Below are positions 1,576 through 18,520 of a stretch of 42,685 bases of DNA, in pieces; position 1 is the stretch's first letter; every line of letters starts with the position of its first letter. The notes below the pieces were generated by a model. The model was given only the letters and a program-made list of their open reading frames with translations. It was not told where the DNA came from and did not search any database. The DNA comes from an uncultured Bacteroidota bacterium (GTDB lineage Bacteria > Bacteroidota > Bacteroidia > Chitinophagales > Chitinophagaceae): contig CAIMDZ010000195.1 of assembly GCA_903839875.1 (NCBI GenBank), positions 1 through 42,685 on the forward strand, written 5' to 3'. The translations under genes and the position numbers were made by a program.

Positions 1576-2235
1576 ATGAGTGAATTGTTCAAAAAGGCGT
1601 TGGGCCTGTTTGTGGAATTTGATGATGCAAAGACGTCTGAGCAATCCTCAAATAACCCGGCACCACAGCCTCAGTCGTTTACTCCTTCTCCGCCGGTATA
1701 TAAAGGGCCGTTGTCTCAGCAGGATATTGATAAATTTTCGAAGCACTTTAATGACCTGTTTGACAAGTCGAATATACAGGGGCCTGATTACTATGAGTTC
1801 AGTAAAATGATGCATATGCTGGAAGCATCGGTGCCGGATGAAAATGTGCGGATATCTGCTGTTTATGCAACACTGAGTATTCAGGGGCTTACAAAGGACC
1901 GAATCATTGATACGGCTAAACAATATTGCTCAGTGCTTGAAAACGACAAGGCAATGTTTGAAAAAGCCGCAGCCGACAAGTCGAGCGCAGATGTGGAGGG
2001 AAGAAAAAACAAGGTTACCTCGCTGGAAAAGAAGATAGCCGACAACTCGGAAATGATACGGAAGCTGACACAAGAGATAACTGATGCTCAAACACAGATA
2101 GGGACATTGAAAAATGAGATCGTGCAGGAAGATGCAAAAATATCGGCCAACAAAGGAAGTTACGGTGTGGCCTACCAGGCAATGCTGAATAAAATAACCA
2201 GTGACATTCAAAAAATTAACACCGTACTGAAATAA
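1576..2235 (+). CDS. Cytoplasmic coiled-coil protein of the ABC/OmpA operon
   Basis: This 219-residue protein has no signal peptide and no membrane segment. Residues 1-25 form a short amphipathic head, 26-45 are a Pro/Gln/Ser-rich linker, and 46-110 form a helical domain containing IQGPDYYEFSKMM and LSIQGLTKDRIIDTA. From about 112 to the end it is a charged, heptad-like coiled coil. It opens a five-gene operon: the next start is one base beyond its stop. I do not recognise a named family. The coiled coil, and another in the next protein, suggest a cytoplasmic partner of the membrane complex, for instance an adaptor. No enzymatic motif is visible. Confidence 0.8.
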   Translation: MSELFKKALGLFVEFDDAKTSEQSSNNPAPQPQSFTPSPPVYKGPLSQQDIDKFSKHFNDLFDKSNIQGPDYYEFSKMMHMLEASVPDENVRISAVYATLSIQGLTKDRIIDTAKQYCSVLENDKAMFEKAAADKSSADVEGRKNKVTSLEKKIADNSEMIRKLTQEITDAQTQIGTLKNEIVQEDAKISANKGSYGVAYQAMLNKITSDIQKINTVLK

Positions 2236-2236
2236 T

Positions 2237-3232
2237 ATGGAAACAAACATCTTCCCTGCAGGCGGCGCCCAGGCAGACAAACTGAAATCGTACTGGAACC
2301 GGCCCGGCGGAAAATTCGGCGTTATTGCCGGCCTTGGCCTATTAGTTGTGATAGGTTACTTTGTAGTACCTATACTGACAAAAGTGGTATGGAACACCCT
2401 GAATTTCGCTATAGCTGTAACCTGCCTGGCGCTATTCCTGTATTGCATTACCAACCGCAAGCTCAGGCTTTCATTCTTCTATTTTTATGAAATACTCATG
2501 AAGAAATTAGTGGGTATTGTGATTGAGCTGGATCCGTTCATTATTGCTGAAGACTATATCAACGATATGGAGAAGCAGCGTGAAAAACTGTATAACCAAT
2601 CGGTGGAAGTGCAGGGACAGAAGGAGAAGATAGATATGAAGATAAAGGAGAAAGAAGATGAGATGCACCATCTGCTGAGCAAGGCCAAAGTAGCCAGGGA
2701 GAATAATATGCTGCCTGAACTGGGTAATGCAACCCGCCAGGTAGCGCGTCTTCAGGAATACATCAAGCAACTGGATCCTATAGCCAACAATCTGTCGAGA
2801 ATAGATGATTACCTGACCAAGATTTACAAGAACAGCGCCTACCTGATAGAAGATGCCAGGAATGAACTGGAGCTGAAGAAGGATCTGTATAATTCGGTAA
2901 CGTCGGGTAACAAAGCGCTGAACTCCGCAATGAAGATATTCAAGGGCGACCCGGAGAAGAAATTGCTGGTGGAGCAATCTATGGAGTACCTGAAGGATGA
3001 TATTGCTGACAAGCTGGGCAATATGAAGAAGGCTATCAGCTATTCTACCGACTTTATGAAGTCAATAGACCTGGACAATGCTACTTATGAGCAGCAGGGA
3101 CTGGATATGCTGGAAAACTTTAACCCGGATGAACAAATGAAACTTTCCAGTTCACAGACAAAGCCAATATCTGCAATACCAACAGAGCCTGGTAAGGTGG
3201 ATAATGATTACTATAACAATCTTTTGAACTAA
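2237..3232 (+). CDS. Two-TM membrane protein with long PspA-like coiled coil
   Basis: The 331-residue protein has two closely spaced hydrophobic helices (about 28-48 and 53-71) near the N-terminus, followed by a long alpha-helical, heptad-rich cytoplasmic region (about 100-295) containing EKQREKLYNQSVEVQGQKEK. The tail after 295 is low-complexity and polar. The long helical rod recalls PspA/IM30-type envelope-stress proteins in general shape, but I see no diagnostic motif, so that comparison is structural inference only. Its ATG follows the preceding stop by one base, implying translational coupling. It probably works at the inner membrane with the substrate-binding/OmpA protein and the ABC transporter encoded downstream. 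Confidence 0.8.
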   Translation: METNIFPAGGAQADKLKSYWNRPGGKFGVIAGLGLLVVIGYFVVPILTKVVWNTLNFAIAVTCLALFLYCITNRKLRLSFFYFYEILMKKLVGIVIELDPFIIAEDYINDMEKQREKLYNQSVEVQGQKEKIDMKIKEKEDEMHHLLSKAKVARENNMLPELGNATRQVARLQEYIKQLDPIANNLSRIDDYLTKIYKNSAYLIEDARNELELKKDLYNSVTSGNKALNSAMKIFKGDPEKKLLVEQSMEYLKDDIADKLGNMKKAISYSTDFMKSIDLDNATYEQQGLDMLENFNPDEQMKLSSSQTKPISAIPTEPGKVDNDYYNNLLN

Positions 3233-3263
3233 TCTAAATTATTTACGAAAAACACATAACAAC

Positions 3264-5030
3264 ATGTCTGTAAAAATTAAAACTTCAGGAAAGATCGTCA
3301 TTATACTGCTGGTAGTGGGTGCGATAGTAGCCGCAAAAATGTTTTGGTGGGATAAGCGCCCCAAAGCTGGTAAAGAATCAACCAACATCGGGAAGGTAAT
3401 GCTGCCCGACGCACCGGACGCTTCTTTCCAGGGCAATGCAACATTATTAGGACTGCCGACTAACGAACCATCGGTAAATGGCGGCACCAAAATATCGTGG
3501 AAGGTAATGGCATGGAATGCGCAATTCGCACTGATGTATGCAAACGGCGGTCCGCAGACAACCAAGGGTTCGCTGATGGATGCTTCGAAACTTCAGATAA
3601 CCATCGAGCGCCAGGACGACTGTAACAAAGCATGTGCGGATGTAGTGAAATTTGCACAGGAATATAAGAACAATCCAAACGCAACCGGCGTATTTGCCAC
3701 CTTTATGGGTGATGGTATGCCGGCATTCTTTGCAGCTCTTTGCAAAGAACTGGAACCATTGGGCCCGGAATTCCAGCCAATAGCGTTTTACCCCATGGGG
3801 AAATCTTACGGAGAAGACAAGGTGATGGGTCCAATCTCGTGGAAGACAAATCCGCAATCATCAATAGGTGGAACCGTAGCCTGCGTACTCAGGGACGGAG
3901 ATATGAACATTCTGCTGAAATGGGCGGGTGATAACGGTATAAAAGTTAACCCTGATGAGACCACTTATGACAGAAATGCCATCAACCTGATAGCTGCAAA
4001 TGACTTCCTGGATGCACCTACGAAGTATATAACCGGGTATAAGGAGAAGAGAAAGATCATTGTGAACGGGAAAAAATTAGCAAAAGACACGACTGTTGGC
4101 GTAGACGCAGTGGCAACATGGACACCCGGAGACGTAAACGTAGCTCAGAAAAAAGGCGGGTTGGTAACTATCGCTTCTACAAGGGAGTATGCTTCGCAGA
4201 TGCCTGCGGTTACCATTACCATTAAGAAGTTTGCCTACGACCACCGTACAGATATTGAGAACATCATTATGGCGCTGGCTCAATCCGGAGACCAGGTAAG
4301 ATCGTTTAACGACGCGAAGAAATTTGCAGCAGATGTTTCAGCGAAAGTATATAATGAGCAGAATGGTGATTACTGGTTAAAATACTATAACGGCGCAGAG
4401 GAAAAAGACATACAGGGAAATACACTTGCCCTTGGCGGATCGCTTGCCTACAACCTGGCTGACGCTGCAAACATGTTCGGACTAGGAAAGGATGGCGTGG
4501 ACAGGTACAAGATCGTGTATGGATCATTTGGCGACATTCTTACCAAAATGTATCCTGAATTATTGCCAACCTACCCGGTGTATGCTAAAGTAGTTGATAA
4601 ATCCTTCTTACAGTCTGTTATTGCTAACCACGTGGAGTTGCTCACGGGTCAGGCTATTAAAGTTAATTATACAGGAGATATTACTCACGAAGTTTCATCA
4701 AAATCGTACCAGATACAATTTGAGACAGGCAGCTCCGTAATTAAGCCTGAATCATACAATATACTGGACGAAATCATGAAGAGTTCAGTAGTAGCAGAAG
4801 GGCTGACAGTGGGAGTCTACGGGCATACAGATAACGTAGGCGTGGAAGGAGCGAACCAGAAATTATCAGAGCAAAGAGCGATATCTGTCAAGAATTACCT
4901 GATCAGCAAGGGCATTCCCGAAAATCGTATTACAGTGAAGGGATTTGGATCTGGCAAACCAATAGCAGATAACAATACCGCTGCGGGTAAGGCAACTAAC
5001 AGGAGAGTACAGATAGTGCTGGGTAAATAA
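3264..5030 (+). CDS. Membrane-anchored substrate-binding domain fused to OmpA peptidoglycan-binding domain
   Basis: This 588-residue protein has an N-terminal uncleaved-looking TM helix (about 10-27), a periplasmic-binding-protein-like region (about 70-440) and a C-terminal OmpA/MotB domain (about 480-588). The OmpA part shows FETGSSVIKPES, GHTDNVG, NQKLSEQRA and TNRRV, the peptidoglycan-binding signature. Four cysteines (120, 124, 160, 207) lie in the binding-protein part. Similar proteins are annotated in databases as phosphate ABC transporter substrate-binding/OmpA family, although the neighbouring permease is of nitrate/taurine type and no phosphate-binding motif is evident. The fusion would tether the solute receptor to both inner membrane and cell wall. 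It is third in the operon, 31 bases after its neighbour, with an intrinsic terminator behind it. Confidence 0.88.
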   Translation: MSVKIKTSGKIVIILLVVGAIVAAKMFWWDKRPKAGKESTNIGKVMLPDAPDASFQGNATLLGLPTNEPSVNGGTKISWKVMAWNAQFALMYANGGPQTTKGSLMDASKLQITIERQDDCNKACADVVKFAQEYKNNPNATGVFATFMGDGMPAFFAALCKELEPLGPEFQPIAFYPMGKSYGEDKVMGPISWKTNPQSSIGGTVACVLRDGDMNILLKWAGDNGIKVNPDETTYDRNAINLIAANDFLDAPTKYITGYKEKRKIIVNGKKLAKDTTVGVDAVATWTPGDVNVAQKKGGLVTIASTREYASQMPAVTITIKKFAYDHRTDIENIIMALAQSGDQVRSFNDAKKFAADVSAKVYNEQNGDYWLKYYNGAEEKDIQGNTLALGGSLAYNLADAANMFGLGKDGVDRYKIVYGSFGDILTKMYPELLPTYPVYAKVVDKSFLQSVIANHVELLTGQAIKVNYTGDITHEVSSKSYQIQFETGSSVIKPESYNILDEIMKSSVVAEGLTVGVYGHTDNVGVEGANQKLSEQRAISVKNYLISKGIPENRITVKGFGSGKPIADNNTAAGKATNRRVQIVLGK

Positions 5031-5058
5031 TAAAATGTCCGTTTAAAATATTAATTTC

Positions 5059-5090
5059 ACATCCTCTTAGCAGCTAAGAGGATGTTTTTT
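5059..5090 (+). terminator. Intrinsic terminator inside the ABC/OmpA operon
   Basis: A 12-bp perfect stem (5059-5070 with 5074-5085, ACATCCTCTTAG arm) and short loop is followed by a T run to 5090. It lies between the OmpA-fusion gene and the ABC permease gene. It may reduce rather than end transcription, setting a lower level for the transporter core. Confidence 0.8.
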
Positions 5091-5122
5091 ATTTAGAAAC
5101 ATTAAGTCTAAAATTGTAGGAT

Positions 5123-5920
5123 ATGCCCGCAAAAAAAAATGACCTGAAAAGTTTCTTTACACCGCTTGGTTCTATCAGCAAAACTTCTGTTTATATCCTG
5201 CTTATCGGCGAACTTATCATTGCTCTGGTAGCATGGCAGATGTCGGGGGAAGGGTTGCTGCCAAGACCTTCGAAAGTTCTTGAGTCGCTGGCCAACGTAG
5301 ATAGCAAGTACAACTTTTTTGAGAACTTCCTGAGCAGTCTCGGGTTGGTGCTGGAGGCAATGGGATTGTCTATACTGATCGCTATGGCGCTGTCGTATCT
5401 ATACCTGATACCTGTTTTGACTCCGGTTACGAAATTCATAGTGAAGTGCCGGTACCTGACATTGTCGGGCCTGGTTTTCGCCTTTAACCTTGGCAGCAGC
5501 AGCGCACACAACCTGAAGATTAACCTGCTTATTTTTGGTATTGTTCCTTTCTTTGTCACTTCCCTTGTGTCTACTATTGACAGTATTGACCGGGCGGAAT
5601 TTGACCTATGTAAATCGCTGCGTATGAGCAATCTTCAGGCGTGGTGGGAAGTGGTGATACTGGGCACGCTGGACCAGGTTTTTGAAGTAATGCGTCAGAA
5701 CTTCGCTATATCGTGGATGATGATAACGATGGTAGAGGGGTTGAACATGTCGGAAGGCGGATTGGGAGCAATAATTATCAAGGCGAACAAGTACATTGAT
5801 CTTGGGACGGTATTCGGGGTACTGGCTGTAATATTTATGGTAGGGGTTTGTTCCGATTACCTCCTGGGCCAACTCAGGAAATGGTTTTTCCCTTATACAC
5901 GATTTAACATGAGAGAGTAA
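5123..5920 (+). CDS. ABC transporter permease (nitrate/taurine-type, BPD_transp_1)
   Basis: The 265-residue protein has about six hydrophobic helices (near 22-39, 70-96, 105-123, 133-149, 190-210, 232-249). A coupling-loop-like EAA region is visible around LRMSNLQAWWEVVILG. Length and layout fit the SsuC/TauC branch of binding-protein-dependent permeases. Its TAA stop shares a base with the ATG of the ATPase gene (TAATG), so the two are translationally coupled. The substrate is unknown. The solute receptor is presumably the OmpA fusion encoded just upstream, since no separate soluble binding protein is present. The upstream terminator suggests lower expression than the first three genes, or a second promoter. 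Confidence 0.88.
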   Translation: MPAKKNDLKSFFTPLGSISKTSVYILLIGELIIALVAWQMSGEGLLPRPSKVLESLANVDSKYNFFENFLSSLGLVLEAMGLSILIAMALSYLYLIPVLTPVTKFIVKCRYLTLSGLVFAFNLGSSSAHNLKINLLIFGIVPFFVTSLVSTIDSIDRAEFDLCKSLRMSNLQAWWEVVILGTLDQVFEVMRQNFAISWMMITMVEGLNMSEGGLGAIIIKANKYIDLGTVFGVLAVIFMVGVCSDYLLGQLRKWFFPYTRFNMRE

Positions 5921-6723
5921 TGATCGAATATAAAAAAGAAGGGTTGCTTTTAAAAGCCACCGACATCAATCTGAAATATGATACCCGCCAGATTCTGAGG
6001 GATGTGAATTTCGAAATATTCGACATTCACCGTCCCGGTGTGATACAAGGGCAGGTGGTATCGCTTATTGGCCGGAGTGGTATCGGCAAAACACAGTTGT
6101 TCAGAATACTGGCAGGGCTCATTAAACCTACTTCCGGAACGGTGACGATTGGACTTGAGCAAAAACCTGTGCAGGCAGGCGAAGTGGGCGTGGTGCCGCA
6201 GAATTATATTTTGTTCAACCACCGAACCATTTATAGTAACCTGAGAATAGGGCTCAACAATTGCGGAAAGCCGGTAAGTGATAAACAGGCGAAGGACATC
6301 ATAGATGATTATGCGAAAAAGTTTGACCTCACAGACCATCTCAAGAAATTCCCGGCGCAACTATCAGGCGGGCAGCGGCAACGTGTCAGCATAATTCAGC
6401 AGGTGCTTACAGGCAATAAGTTCATACTGCTGGATGAGCCATTCTCCGGCCTTGATCCGCTGATGAAGGACAAAGTAGATGAACTGCTGATACAAATAGC
6501 CAACCTTGATGAACAAAGCACACTCATTATTGTGAGTCACGATATCATTAATACGCTCGCACTAAGTGATACGGCATTTATACTCGCTCCGCAACGAGGG
6601 AAAGAAGGCGCGACAATAACCGAGGTAATTGACCTGATGGAACTTGGCTTTGCATGGAATCCTAATATAAAAGCAGACCACGCTTTCCATGATTTGGTGC
6701 ATGATATCAAAGGGAAATTGTAG
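5920..6723 (+). CDS. ABC transporter ATP-binding protein
   Basis: This 267-residue ATPase contains all nucleotide-binding motifs: Walker A GRSGIGKT (51-58), signature LSGGQRQRVS (148-157), Walker B FILLDEP (168-174) and the switch histidine in VSHD (207). Its closest recognisable relatives are SsuB/TauB-type ATPases. A short insertion before Walker A (IHRPGVIQGQ) is not typical of the plain family. The gene overlaps the permease stop by one base and is last in the operon. It should drive transport or mechanical coupling through the permease. Only one ATPase is encoded, so a homodimer is expected. Confidence 0.92.
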   Translation: MIEYKKEGLLLKATDINLKYDTRQILRDVNFEIFDIHRPGVIQGQVVSLIGRSGIGKTQLFRILAGLIKPTSGTVTIGLEQKPVQAGEVGVVPQNYILFNHRTIYSNLRIGLNNCGKPVSDKQAKDIIDDYAKKFDLTDHLKKFPAQLSGGQRQRVSIIQQVLTGNKFILLDEPFSGLDPLMKDKVDELLIQIANLDEQSTLIIVSHDIINTLALSDTAFILAPQRGKEGATITEVIDLMELGFAWNPNIKADHAFHDLVHDIKGKL

Positions 6724-16996: not shown

Positions 16997-18520
16997 ATGC
17001 ATAAAAAATTATTTAGTATTATTATTATCCTGACCTCAGGTCTATTTTTCTCTTCAGCCAAGGCGCAAACCATCAGCATTGCAGCAAGTACATCCGATAC
17101 AATATGTTCAGGTACTATGGTAACCTTTTCTGCAACTGCTACCGGTGGCACCCACTACCGCTGGCTTAAAAACAGCCTCACTGTTGGTGCAGACAGTACC
17201 CATTATTCAACAGCCGGCCTCATCAATGGCGATGTGATCCAGTGCGAATTACTTAATGCACCCGCTGGAATAATCATTGCCCTCTCTGCTCCAAAAGTAA
17301 TGACCGTTCAAAGTATTCCCGTAGTTTCAGCCATTTCAGGCTCCGCTTCGGTTTGCAGGTTTTCAACTACTACCCTCACATATCCTACCTCGGGTGGTTC
17401 ATGGAACACCTCTAATGCTTTTATTGCTTCTGTAAGCTCTTCAGGGGTTGTTACAGGCATAAATACGGGTGTTGACACTATCAGTTACACGATTACCAAT
17501 ACCTGTGGAACCGGCAGTGCCATCCTTTCATTTACTGTAAACACTTTACCGTTTGTACCTCCAATTACCGGACCTAACACTATATGTATGGGTAGTACCG
17601 GAGCCTTCATAGATACAGCATTTGGGGGCACATGGAGTGTTTCAAGCACCTCGATCGCTACTATCTCATCTACAGGCGATATTACCACTGTTTCATTAGG
17701 TATAGACACAGTTTTTTATTCAGTAACCAATGGCTGTGGTACAACCACACGCAGAAGGCCGTTTGGTGTGATCACTGCTCCGGTTGCACAACCAATCTCA
17801 GGCCGTAATACAGTCTGCGAAGGAGATACAATTCACCTGAGGAACATGGTACCCGGCGGAAACTGGCATAGTTTAAATAATCCTGTTGCTGCTGTGGTTC
17901 CCGGTGGCGGCGGTGGTGGCGGCGGTTCTACCGCAGTGATTCATGGGAATGCCGGTGGTACAGCCACGATTGTTTACGTAGTTGCTAATGCCTGCGGAAT
18001 AGACTCATCTACTATTAATATTACAGTAAACCCCCTCCCGGTTATTTATCCAATTATTGGCAAAGATAGTGTGTGCCCTACCGACACTACCTCCTTATTT
18101 GAGTATGCTACAGGCGGTGCCTGGTCCTCCAAAAATGGATTGGCAACAGTTGATGCTGCCGGCAATGTAATTGGTGTTACAGCAGGTATCGACACCATTT
18201 TGTATAGCCTTACAAATAGCTGCGGTACGGTTAGCCAGGCCATTACAATGCATATATATTGTCCTGCCCGTGCAGGTGTTCCGGTAGCTCCCGTTAATAA
18301 AGAAATAGCAGTGTACCCAAATCCTGCACATACAGCTTTCAGCATTACGGGTATTGAACCTTCAAGGGTATTATTGGTAAATACCCTCGGACAAACGTTA
18401 AAAAACCTAAATAATATAAATACTGTTTCCATCAGCGATCTTCCTGATGGAGTATATTTCCTCACAGTCTTTGATGAAAATGGAAATATCGCCAAAAAGG
18501 AACGCATTGTGAAATGGTAA
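16997..18520 (+). CDS. T9SS-secreted Ig/BIG-like repeat protein
   Basis: Starting at 16997 gives about 507 residues with a signal peptide (MHKKLFSIIIILTSG to AKAQ); the frame is open further upstream but that part is not signal-like. One Ig-like module (TICSGTMVTFSATATGG) is followed by four ~85-residue repeats of the type VCxGxT...GGxWS...VSxxGxVTGxxxGxDTIxYxxTNxCGT, as in Bacteroidota Ig-like adhesins. The C-terminus (VYPNPAHTAFSI to KERIVKW) is a T9SS type-A sorting domain. The third repeat carries a run of eight glycines encoded by a duplicated 12-base unit. A surface or extracellular structural/adhesive role is likely. Confidence 0.9.
   Translation: MHKKLFSIIIILTSGLFFSSAKAQTISIAASTSDTICSGTMVTFSATATGGTHYRWLKNSLTVGADSTHYSTAGLINGDVIQCELLNAPAGIIIALSAPKVMTVQSIPVVSAISGSASVCRFSTTTLTYPTSGGSWNTSNAFIASVSSSGVVTGINTGVDTISYTITNTCGTGSAILSFTVNTLPFVPPITGPNTICMGSTGAFIDTAFGGTWSVSSTSIATISSTGDITTVSLGIDTVFYSVTNGCGTTTRRRPFGVITAPVAQPISGRNTVCEGDTIHLRNMVPGGNWHSLNNPVAAVVPGGGGGGGGSTAVIHGNAGGTATIVYVVANACGIDSSTINITVNPLPVIYPIIGKDSVCPTDTTSLFEYATGGAWSSKNGLATVDAAGNVIGVTAGIDTILYSLTNSCGTVSQAITMHIYCPARAGVPVAPVNKEIAVYPNPAHTAFSITGIEPSRVLLVNTLGQTLKNLNNINTVSISDLPDGVYFLTVFDENGNIAKKERIVKW

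Follow-up and report, generated by a model that had tools for sequence, protein, structure and literature searches.

The five-gene set at positions 1576 to 6723 of the window (the whole 42,685-nt stretch of DNA analysed here, from an uncultured member of the Chitinophagaceae) may encode a wall-anchored importer of the NitT/TauT type that works with its own membrane-anchored PspA-like scaffold, a reading to which, taken as a whole, we give a probability of about one half. That is, the products would form a complex that includes an SsuABC/TauABC/NrtABC-type importer of a small solute; the binding protein (the receptor) would be fixed to the inner membrane by its N-terminal helix and to peptidoglycan by its OmpA domain. 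With a receptor anchored in both membrane and wall, the transporter units would be located at wall-attached sites. The second coiled-coil protein (cc2) would line the cytoplasmic face at these sites, with the first (cc1) as its cytoplasmic partner, and would stabilise or organise the membrane surrounding the transporter. If it is a real unit, such a system would join ABC import, wall anchoring and PspA/ESCRT-III-type membrane remodelling, which are usually studied separately.

All five ORFs lie on the forward strand, in the order cc1 (1576-2235, 219 aa), cc2 (2237-3232, 331 aa), receptor (3264-5030, 588 aa), probable ABC permease of the NitT/TauT/SsuC type (5123-5920, 265 aa) and ABC ATPase with Walker A, Walker B and signature motifs (5920-6723, 267 aa). 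A first reading, made from the sequence only, had described a tight operon, and the ORF coordinates, the 1-base gap between cc1 and cc2 (2235/2237) and the 1-base overlap between permease and ATPase (TAATG at 5918-5922) that it gave are correct; the remaining junctions measure 31 nt (cc2-receptor) and 92 nt (receptor-permease). However, the 92-nt gap contains a terminator-like hairpin on the forward strand (5059-5093; a 12-bp stem, then a T-run), so that two blocks, cc1-cc2-receptor and permease-ATPase, look likely instead. The hairpin may act as an expression step-down between receptor and permease. Terminator-like sites were found in 13 of 53 bacterial receptor-permease gaps of at least 30 nt, compared with 1.6 by shuffling, and in 2 of 66 cc2-receptor gaps, compared with 1.0 by shuffling. 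Relatives were found at 109 loci, 88 of which have at least 3 kb on each side of the receptor. Chitinophaga pinensis carries one related locus, L047. The five genes keep one order on one strand in 84 of these 88 loci, and cc1 is 5′ of cc2 likewise in 84; the exceptions (L060, L081, L116 and L119) have cc2 elsewhere in their genomes, and the L060 genome possesses a second, complete locus (L072). Conservation of the gene order extends beyond close relatives, to several families of Bacteroidota and to giant phages, as expected of the joint system that had been proposed. A cysteine synthase gene adjoining the window operon was rejected as a clue to the substrate, since it was found beside no other locus compared. 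Similarly, a palindrome, TTAGTATTATAATACTAA (1543-1560), was dropped as a candidate operator, being absent from the relatives' upstream stretches examined.

The receptor consists of an N-terminal membrane helix, a NitT/TauT-type (TauA/NrtA-like) substrate-binding domain and a C-terminal OmpA-like domain. Its earlier description as a hydrophobic N-terminal helix joined to a wall-binding domain is borne out by the match to PF00691 (1.3e-24, 86.8 bits against a cut-off of 27.2) and by an AF2 model (pLDDT 87), which matches TauA (6ssy, E 2.9e-9), CmpA (2i48, 1.2e-7) and NrtA (2g29, 1.3e-7) as well as OmpA domains, structures 3td4 and 3td5 being among the matches. Asp523 and Arg538 are invariant across 49 aligned sequences, and correspond to the Asp and Arg of OmpA-like domains that we take to hold diaminopimelate. 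By a strict pattern, the wall-binding Asp and Arg are present in 112 of 123 cases (in 6 that escape the pattern, TDN and R can still be read), and the domain would bind the wall in the cell; the Asp is lost in gp249 and gp250 of phage G and in MT835556. Among binding-protein models, the phage receptors come nearest to SsuA_fam (1.5e-27 for phage G and 9e-19 for Lak, both under the cut-off). The permease remains below the cut-off for BPD_transp_1 (7e-5, 23.1 bits against 26.4) and for the TauC model (5.2e-8), and its relative in phage G, gp243, reaches 83.4 bits with BPD_transp_1. The related permease was present in 14 of 15 genomes searched, the sole miss being an 87%-complete genome. The ATPase matches PF00005 (ABC_tran; 1.4e-27, 97.4 bits), and its motifs are conserved among 102 relatives, with Walker A in 102, Walker B in 101 and the signature in 99, while crude patterns recover the Q-loop in 74 and the H-loop in 92.

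As read from its sequence, cc1 is a cytoplasmic protein made up of a short N-terminal motif, a Pro-rich linker, a small domain and a C-terminal coiled coil. In cc2, an N-terminal hydrophobic anchor of two stretches is followed by an amphipathic helix and what is probably a PspA/Vipp1-like helical hairpin. The PspA-like character previously suggested for cc2 is supported by Foldseek, in which the best 7 rows obtained with the AF2 model (pLDDT 72) were all Vipp1, and by structure alignments, Pfam matches of relatives and helix moments. Several Vipp1/PspA rows have their first residue aligned to model residue 76, and helix 74-98 aligns with Vipp1/PspA residues 1-24 in several rows; window residue 99 pairs with Vipp1/PspA residue 24 in the structure alignments and with PspA profile position 23 in the Pfam trace, that is, in the same register. 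PspA_IM30 (PF04012) matches the window cc2 below the cut-off (15.4 bits against 33.9, E 0.015), is the most frequent Pfam match among cc2 relatives (9 of 57 reach E 0.01, the best at 1.8e-6) and scores 42.4 bits with the positional counterpart in MT835556. Pro100 is invariant in all 57 relatives, and the helix preceding it is amphipathic, with a mean moment of 0.41 against 0.26 in shuffled sequences (57 members). Hydrophobic 17-mers N-terminal to Pro100 number two in 44 of the 57 members, three in 12 and one in 1. The membrane anchor of cc2 is an addition to the PspA-type amphipathic helix and not its replacement. Top matches of a PDB profile search with cc2 were other coiled coils and designed proteins.

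Like the TauABC, SsuABC, NrtABC and CmpABC importers, the set combines this binding-protein fold with what is probably this type of permease and with this type of ATPase. It departs from them in a binding protein anchored in the membrane and equipped with a domain for wall binding, and in two coiled-coil partner genes. Likewise, cc2 shares with PspA/Vipp1 (IM30, bacterial ESCRT-III-like) the helix order and register from model residue 76 and the amphipathic helix ahead of the putative hairpin, but differs from these peripheral proteins, which have no transmembrane anchor, by its extra N-terminal hydrophobic anchor and by a window sequence below the Pfam cut-off. An OmpA-like domain is also found in MotB/PomB, Pal and other wall anchors, none of which, to our knowledge, has a substrate-binding domain. 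A cluster on Vibrio plasmid pSEA1 encodes TelA, a VWA protein, two OmpA-bearing binding proteins, a TIGR03427 urea-type binding protein and a permease. Here too, binding proteins with OmpA-like domains lie near an ABC ATPase and a permease, but TelA and another coiled-coil gene take the place of cc1 and cc2; that coiled-coil gene was rejected as a cc2 relative (comparison prob 0.9%). In only one of the two OmpA-bearing proteins is the OmpA-motif Asp clearly missing; the other, L156a, reads GHSD. In the consulted parts of Ravi et al. 2024 (PMC11237479), operons of bacteria are described in which TM-bearing PspA/Snf7 homologues occur together with an AAA+ ATPase, an ABC ATPase, a permease and a PBPB-OmpA protein. 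They resemble the window set in the TM-bearing PspA/Snf7 homologue, the ABC ATPase, the permease and the solute- and wall-binding protein, and a link between membrane remodelling and solute transport is suggested there as well; they differ in the AAA+ ATPase, none of which was seen, by eye among the ORFs, between or directly beside the five window genes. The combined function, which the sequence-only reading had called not established, concerns a combination that is partly in print already. In the same parts of that paper cc1 is not spelled out as a fixed partner, and the words viruses, bacteriophage, megaphage and phage G are absent from its main text.

The five-gene set was also found in 15 Lak records (540-552 kb) and in huge phages of 735 kb and 462 kb. 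Bacillus phage G, a cultured phage whose Gram-positive laboratory host is Bacillus megaterium, carries a rearranged set (block gp243-gp250) with counterparts of both coiled-coil families, that of cc1 being gp246 (hhalign prob 66%, E 5.5e-5; crossed controls prob 0.9%). A scan with Lak-type receptors returned five loci, four with all five genes and one truncated; the receptor of the 735-kb phage gave no match when scanned against viral contigs. Of 12 large phage records, 4 have the permease, and all 8 that were included as controls lack it; the set was accordingly rejected as a hallmark of all giant phages. In the permease tree the phage copies occupy three positions, one group adjoining a lone bacterial locus (G084). 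Many IMG/VR contigs among the related loci are unproven as viral; in a hallmark search of 22 records, the terminase model matched 8 (7 over the cut-off) and gp23 matched 7. The tree label 'phage_proven' includes rows outside the hallmark search, namely the named phage genomes Lak-B5 (L006) and phage G (L154), a record named Bacteriophage sp. (L155) and IMG/VR contigs resembling Lak (L149, L151 and L152), and L127 and L147 are labelled unproven though their terminase match is over the cut-off. Strong purifying selection acts on most of the Lak genes compared (dN/dS between Lak-A1 and Lak-B5 of 0.06 for cc2, 0.07 for the permease and 0.13 for the receptor). The Lak cassettes contain no recoded TAG, which is present in several neighbouring genes.

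The locus could instead hold an ordinary importer and a separable PspA-like housekeeping pair, cc1-cc2, devoted to general membrane maintenance and merely sharing a promoter, with no joint complex. In one draw of 198 genomes, 20 had cc2 (E < 1e-9) and neither receptor type, which suggests that the pair is able to stand alone. Moreover, receptor-less cc2, with or without cc1, adjoins unrelated genes at five loci in four genomes, and the transporter genes are apart from the pair in several genomes. We nevertheless find a separable pair rather unlikely, since all 43 receptor-positive genomes of the draw (14 window-type, E < 1e-20, and 29 second-type, E < 1e-30) carry cc2, which argues that the coiled-coil genes are more than passengers, as the sequence-only reading had supposed. 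The fact that cc1-cc2-receptor stay together in giant phages, and the position of the hairpin 3′ of the receptor rather than of cc2, point the same way. The double anchoring of the receptor, predicted by sequence and model, and its PspA-like partner would also fit an envelope sensor, in which the ABC part, instead of importing, would signal via cc1-cc2 what the tethered receptor reports, be it tension, distance or a wall fragment. No PF04012 match was found in the window's own genome, which would leave cc2 as a candidate for its stress effector. This is improbable, however, as the conserved ATPase motifs and the binding-protein fold favour transport, and the flanks compared show no sixth gene family, regulator or other, that accompanies the set across bacterial lineages.

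The presence of the set in giant phages suggests that, on infection, these viruses equip the host envelope with it. The Lak set can be read by the standard code and so could be made ahead of genes with recoded TAG; it would act while the infected cell is still alive, not at lysis. A bolder reading, which we hold to be less likely than not, is that several giant-phage lineages independently acquired such a wall-anchored transporter together with its own ESCRT-III-like membrane scaffold, and that they install it early in the host envelope, where it would feed or preserve the cell long enough for giant-virion assembly. The lineages concerned are Lak, phage G and the huge phages of 735 kb and 462 kb, with Gram-negative and Gram-positive hosts. 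Alternatively, the phage set could serve host-envelope protection or superinfection exclusion, bacterial copies being phage-derived or acting in phage-related conflict. The three tree positions, with one phage group beside G084, the purifying selection and the TAG-free Lak set would agree with this; as context, host pspA transcripts drop in AR9-infected Bacillus subtilis, according to the part of that study consulted (PMC5312081). But 13 Chitinophaga loci lie in one common chromosomal neighbourhood that is neither a defence nor a mobile context, and the eight permease-free controls speak against a general giant-phage need, leaving only a slim chance for a phage device of this kind.

For the importer with its PspA-like scaffold, the kind of operon is itself partly in print, and the giant-phage occurrence is the part not met with in the literature consulted. 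The terms 'ABC' and 'OmpA' are absent from the full texts of Al-Shayeb 2020, Crisci 2021 and Devoto 2019 (Crisci 2021 has a single mention of 'magnesium transporter'), and none of the matches listed in literature searches (e.g. the best 20 of 958) describes the set in phages. A Jug-phage preprint reports a pspA-like gene adjoining terD and does not contain 'ABC transporter', 'OmpA' or 'permease', and the Borg paper, in the part consulted, mentions ESCRT-III-like proteins in some Borgs. The phage G genes of the set are annotated just as 'OmpA/MotB domain' or 'ABC-like transporter permease', and the Lak megaphage records are unannotated in the collection used; the proposal would offer a role for these phage G genes and for a block of the Lak genomes. 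The giant-phage copies make the proposal testable, and the gp243-gp250 block of phage G is a ready target.

The five ORFs found at window 1576-6723 (+) agreed exactly in their coordinates with those of the sequence-only reading, which had described them as a tight operon. They encode a cytoplasmic coiled-coil protein (cc1), an N-terminally membrane-anchored PspA/Vipp1-like protein (cc2), a membrane-anchored NitT/TauT-type binding protein with an OmpA wall-binding domain (the receptor), a permease and an ATPase. Pfam matches were strong for the OmpA domain of the receptor (1.3e-24) and for ABC_tran in the ATPase (1.4e-27), slightly below the cut-off for the permease (7e-5; 23.1 bits against 26.4) and faint for PspA_IM30 in cc2 (0.015). 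Among NCBIfam models, the permease was closest to TauC and SaoP and the ATPase to PhnT2 and NtrCD, all below their cut-offs. Two junctions are tight: 1 nt separates cc1 from cc2, and permease and ATPase overlap by 1 nt. Receptor and permease, by contrast, are split by 92 nt containing a 12-bp hairpin with a T-run behind it. Of the bacterial receptor-permease gaps of 30 nt or longer, 13 of 53 carried a site of this type, where shuffling predicted 1.6; for cc2-receptor gaps the figures were 2 of 66 and 1.0. Because of the position of the hairpin, the operon is best seen as two blocks, cc1-cc2-receptor and permease-ATPase, the second of which is probably expressed at a lower level. Lower expression of the permease and ATPase genes is usual in binding-protein operons. 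Upstream of cc1 lies a perfect 18-bp inverted repeat (1277-1294 and 1393-1410, arms 98 nt apart; none expected by chance), which may represent a small mobile element or a regulatory one. In addition, an 18-bp palindrome, TTAGTATTATAATACTAA (1543-1560), immediately 5' of the cc1 start, was not seen in the upstream stretches of relatives examined.

Conserved co-occurrence of the five families was borne out. A scan of genome contigs for relatives of the receptor domain yielded 277 stretches. The top 80 were retained, and their record titles name 78 Bacteroidota, one Chlorobiota and one Williamsia; a scan of viral contigs added 29 loci, giving 109. In 84 of the 88 loci with at least 3 kb on either side of the receptor, the five genes were in order on one strand; for the four exceptions (L060, L081, L116 and L119), cc2 was present elsewhere in the genome. 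Among 198 genomes drawn from the order, 14 carried the window-type receptor (E below 1e-20) and 29 a second type (E below 1e-30), and all 43 receptor-positive genomes had cc2. At E below 1e-9, cc2 was found in 63 of the 198, 20 of which lacked both receptor types; five cc2 loci from four of these 20 genomes had unrelated genes alongside, with cc1 present in three. All five second-type loci read had cc1-cc2-receptor, with a permease alongside in two, and a related permease was found somewhere in the genome in 14 of 15 genomes searched, including the window's own. Across the phylum the distribution of the full receptor is patchy (4 of 198 genomes drawn, the window's own counted). No sixth gene family common to the bacterial lineages was found in the flanks of the loci. 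Thirteen Chitinophaga loci share a neighbourhood that includes an enolase-like gene (named by eye), and therefore the block has long been resident there.

Operons of this kind have been described by Ravi et al. 2024 (PMC11237479), who list TM-bearing PspA/Snf7 homologues along with an AAA+ ATPase, an ABC ATPase, a permease and a PBPB-OmpA protein; they suggest that membrane remodelling is linked with solute transport. Unlike in those operons as described there, no AAA+ gene was seen by eye between the five genes of the window or directly beside them, and cc1 is a constant partner. The observation made by the sequence-only reading was confirmed, and its interpretation was supported in part, the mechanism being deduced from the anatomy of the operon. 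The terms 'bacteriophage', 'viruses' and 'megaphage' are absent from the main text of Ravi et al. 2024, and the matches listed in our literature searches held no account of the set in phages. Its occurrence in giant phages, unreported in the literature searched, is the most interesting part of the analysis.

In huge phages, tblastn found receptor, permease and cc2 together. With the receptor of a 735-kb phage as query, 20 phage records matched at 80% coverage or more, namely the 735-kb genome (two copies), Lak (15), phage G (two copies) and an unverified 38-kb fecal clone; the 462-kb LR756500 is one phage record beyond these. All five genes were in order in LR756500, Lak-A1, Lak-B5 and LR756501, with extra small ORFs between receptor and permease in Lak-A1 (one) and Lak-B5 (three). 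In LR756500, cc1 and cc2 matched weakly in single-sequence searches and strongly in profile searches; the LR756501 receptor was found by single sequence and missed by the window-type profile. Terminase and gp23 capsid models confirmed Lak-A1, LR756500 and LR756501 as phages, and matched some IMG/VR records, the viral origin of many others being unproven. The set is not a general feature of large phages, since none of eight others (317-642 kb) had the permease. In two Lak phages a class II aldolase-like gene (PF00596) immediately precedes cc1 (L004 7913-9049; L006 7910-9064), and in LR756500 a PF00596-matching gene is located some 5.6 kb 5' of cc1 (L003 1148-2287).

Between Lak-A1 and Lak-B5, dN/dS was 0.06 for cc2, 0.07 for the permease, 0.13 for the receptor and 0.30 for cc1, and in two further phage pairs the values with unsaturated dS reached 0.26 at most; by these ratios the phage copies are under constraint. 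The ATPase value was 0.48, for two versions that share 44% identity and may be non-orthologous; in Lak-B5 (ATPase region L006 15427-17865) the ATPase gene is followed by another ATPase-like ORF (17560-17865). Lak phages are described by Devoto (2019) as reading TAG as Gln mainly in structural-protein regions. No in-frame TAG occurred in the cassette regions of Lak-A1 (1856 codons) and Lak-B5 (2178 codons), which can thus be translated with the standard code; the other ORFs of at least 120 codons in the same loci had 41 (3911 codons) and 57 (2985 codons), respectively. Since several other genes near the cassettes are also TAG-free, this is compatible with early synthesis, not proof of it.

On a midpoint-rooted permease tree of 59 rows, one a very long outgroup, phage rows occupied three positions. 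One comprises phage G and the fecal clone; a second, adjoining two second-type bacterial loci, comprises Lak and the 735-kb phage; and the third, adjoining a single bacterial locus (G084), comprises LR756500 and gp23-bearing IMG/VR phages. The phage/bacterial label needed five changes, at least four of them forced by well-supported branches, where rows without a hallmark search (Lak-B5, L006; phage G, L154; L155, titled Bacteriophage sp.; and the Lak-like IMG/VR contigs L149, L151 and L152) also bear the phage label, and L127 and L147 are labelled unproven despite a terminase match over the cut-off. Phage G has a gene order unlike that of the other five-gene loci: permease (gp243), ATPase (gp245), gp246, gp247 and a tandem pair of receptors (gp249, gp250). 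Neither gp246 nor gp247 was convincingly matched by the cc1 and cc2 profile HMMs, but profile-profile comparison, with phage-side profiles built from two sequences, paired gp246 with cc1 (probability 66%, E 5.5e-5) and gp247 with cc2 (72%, 3.4e-5), against 0.9% for the crossed control pairs.

A second binding protein of 381 aa (L157 6441-7586), lipoprotein-like by eye and without an OmpA domain, adjoins a wall-tethered one. In one second-type locus the permease and ATPase genes are separated by a TenA/PqqC-like gene (L161 4463-5146; named by eye). Receptor-less cc1-cc2 pairs (L163 7377-8949; L166 6239-7813) stand beside a GpsA-like gene and apparent Na/Pi and SLC13-type anion transporter genes, likewise named by eye. 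The Vibrio plasmid pSEA1 (L156 8444-18543) encodes a related system with an ABC ATPase, two OmpA-bearing binding proteins and a permease, and additionally a VWA protein, TelA and a urea-type binding protein.
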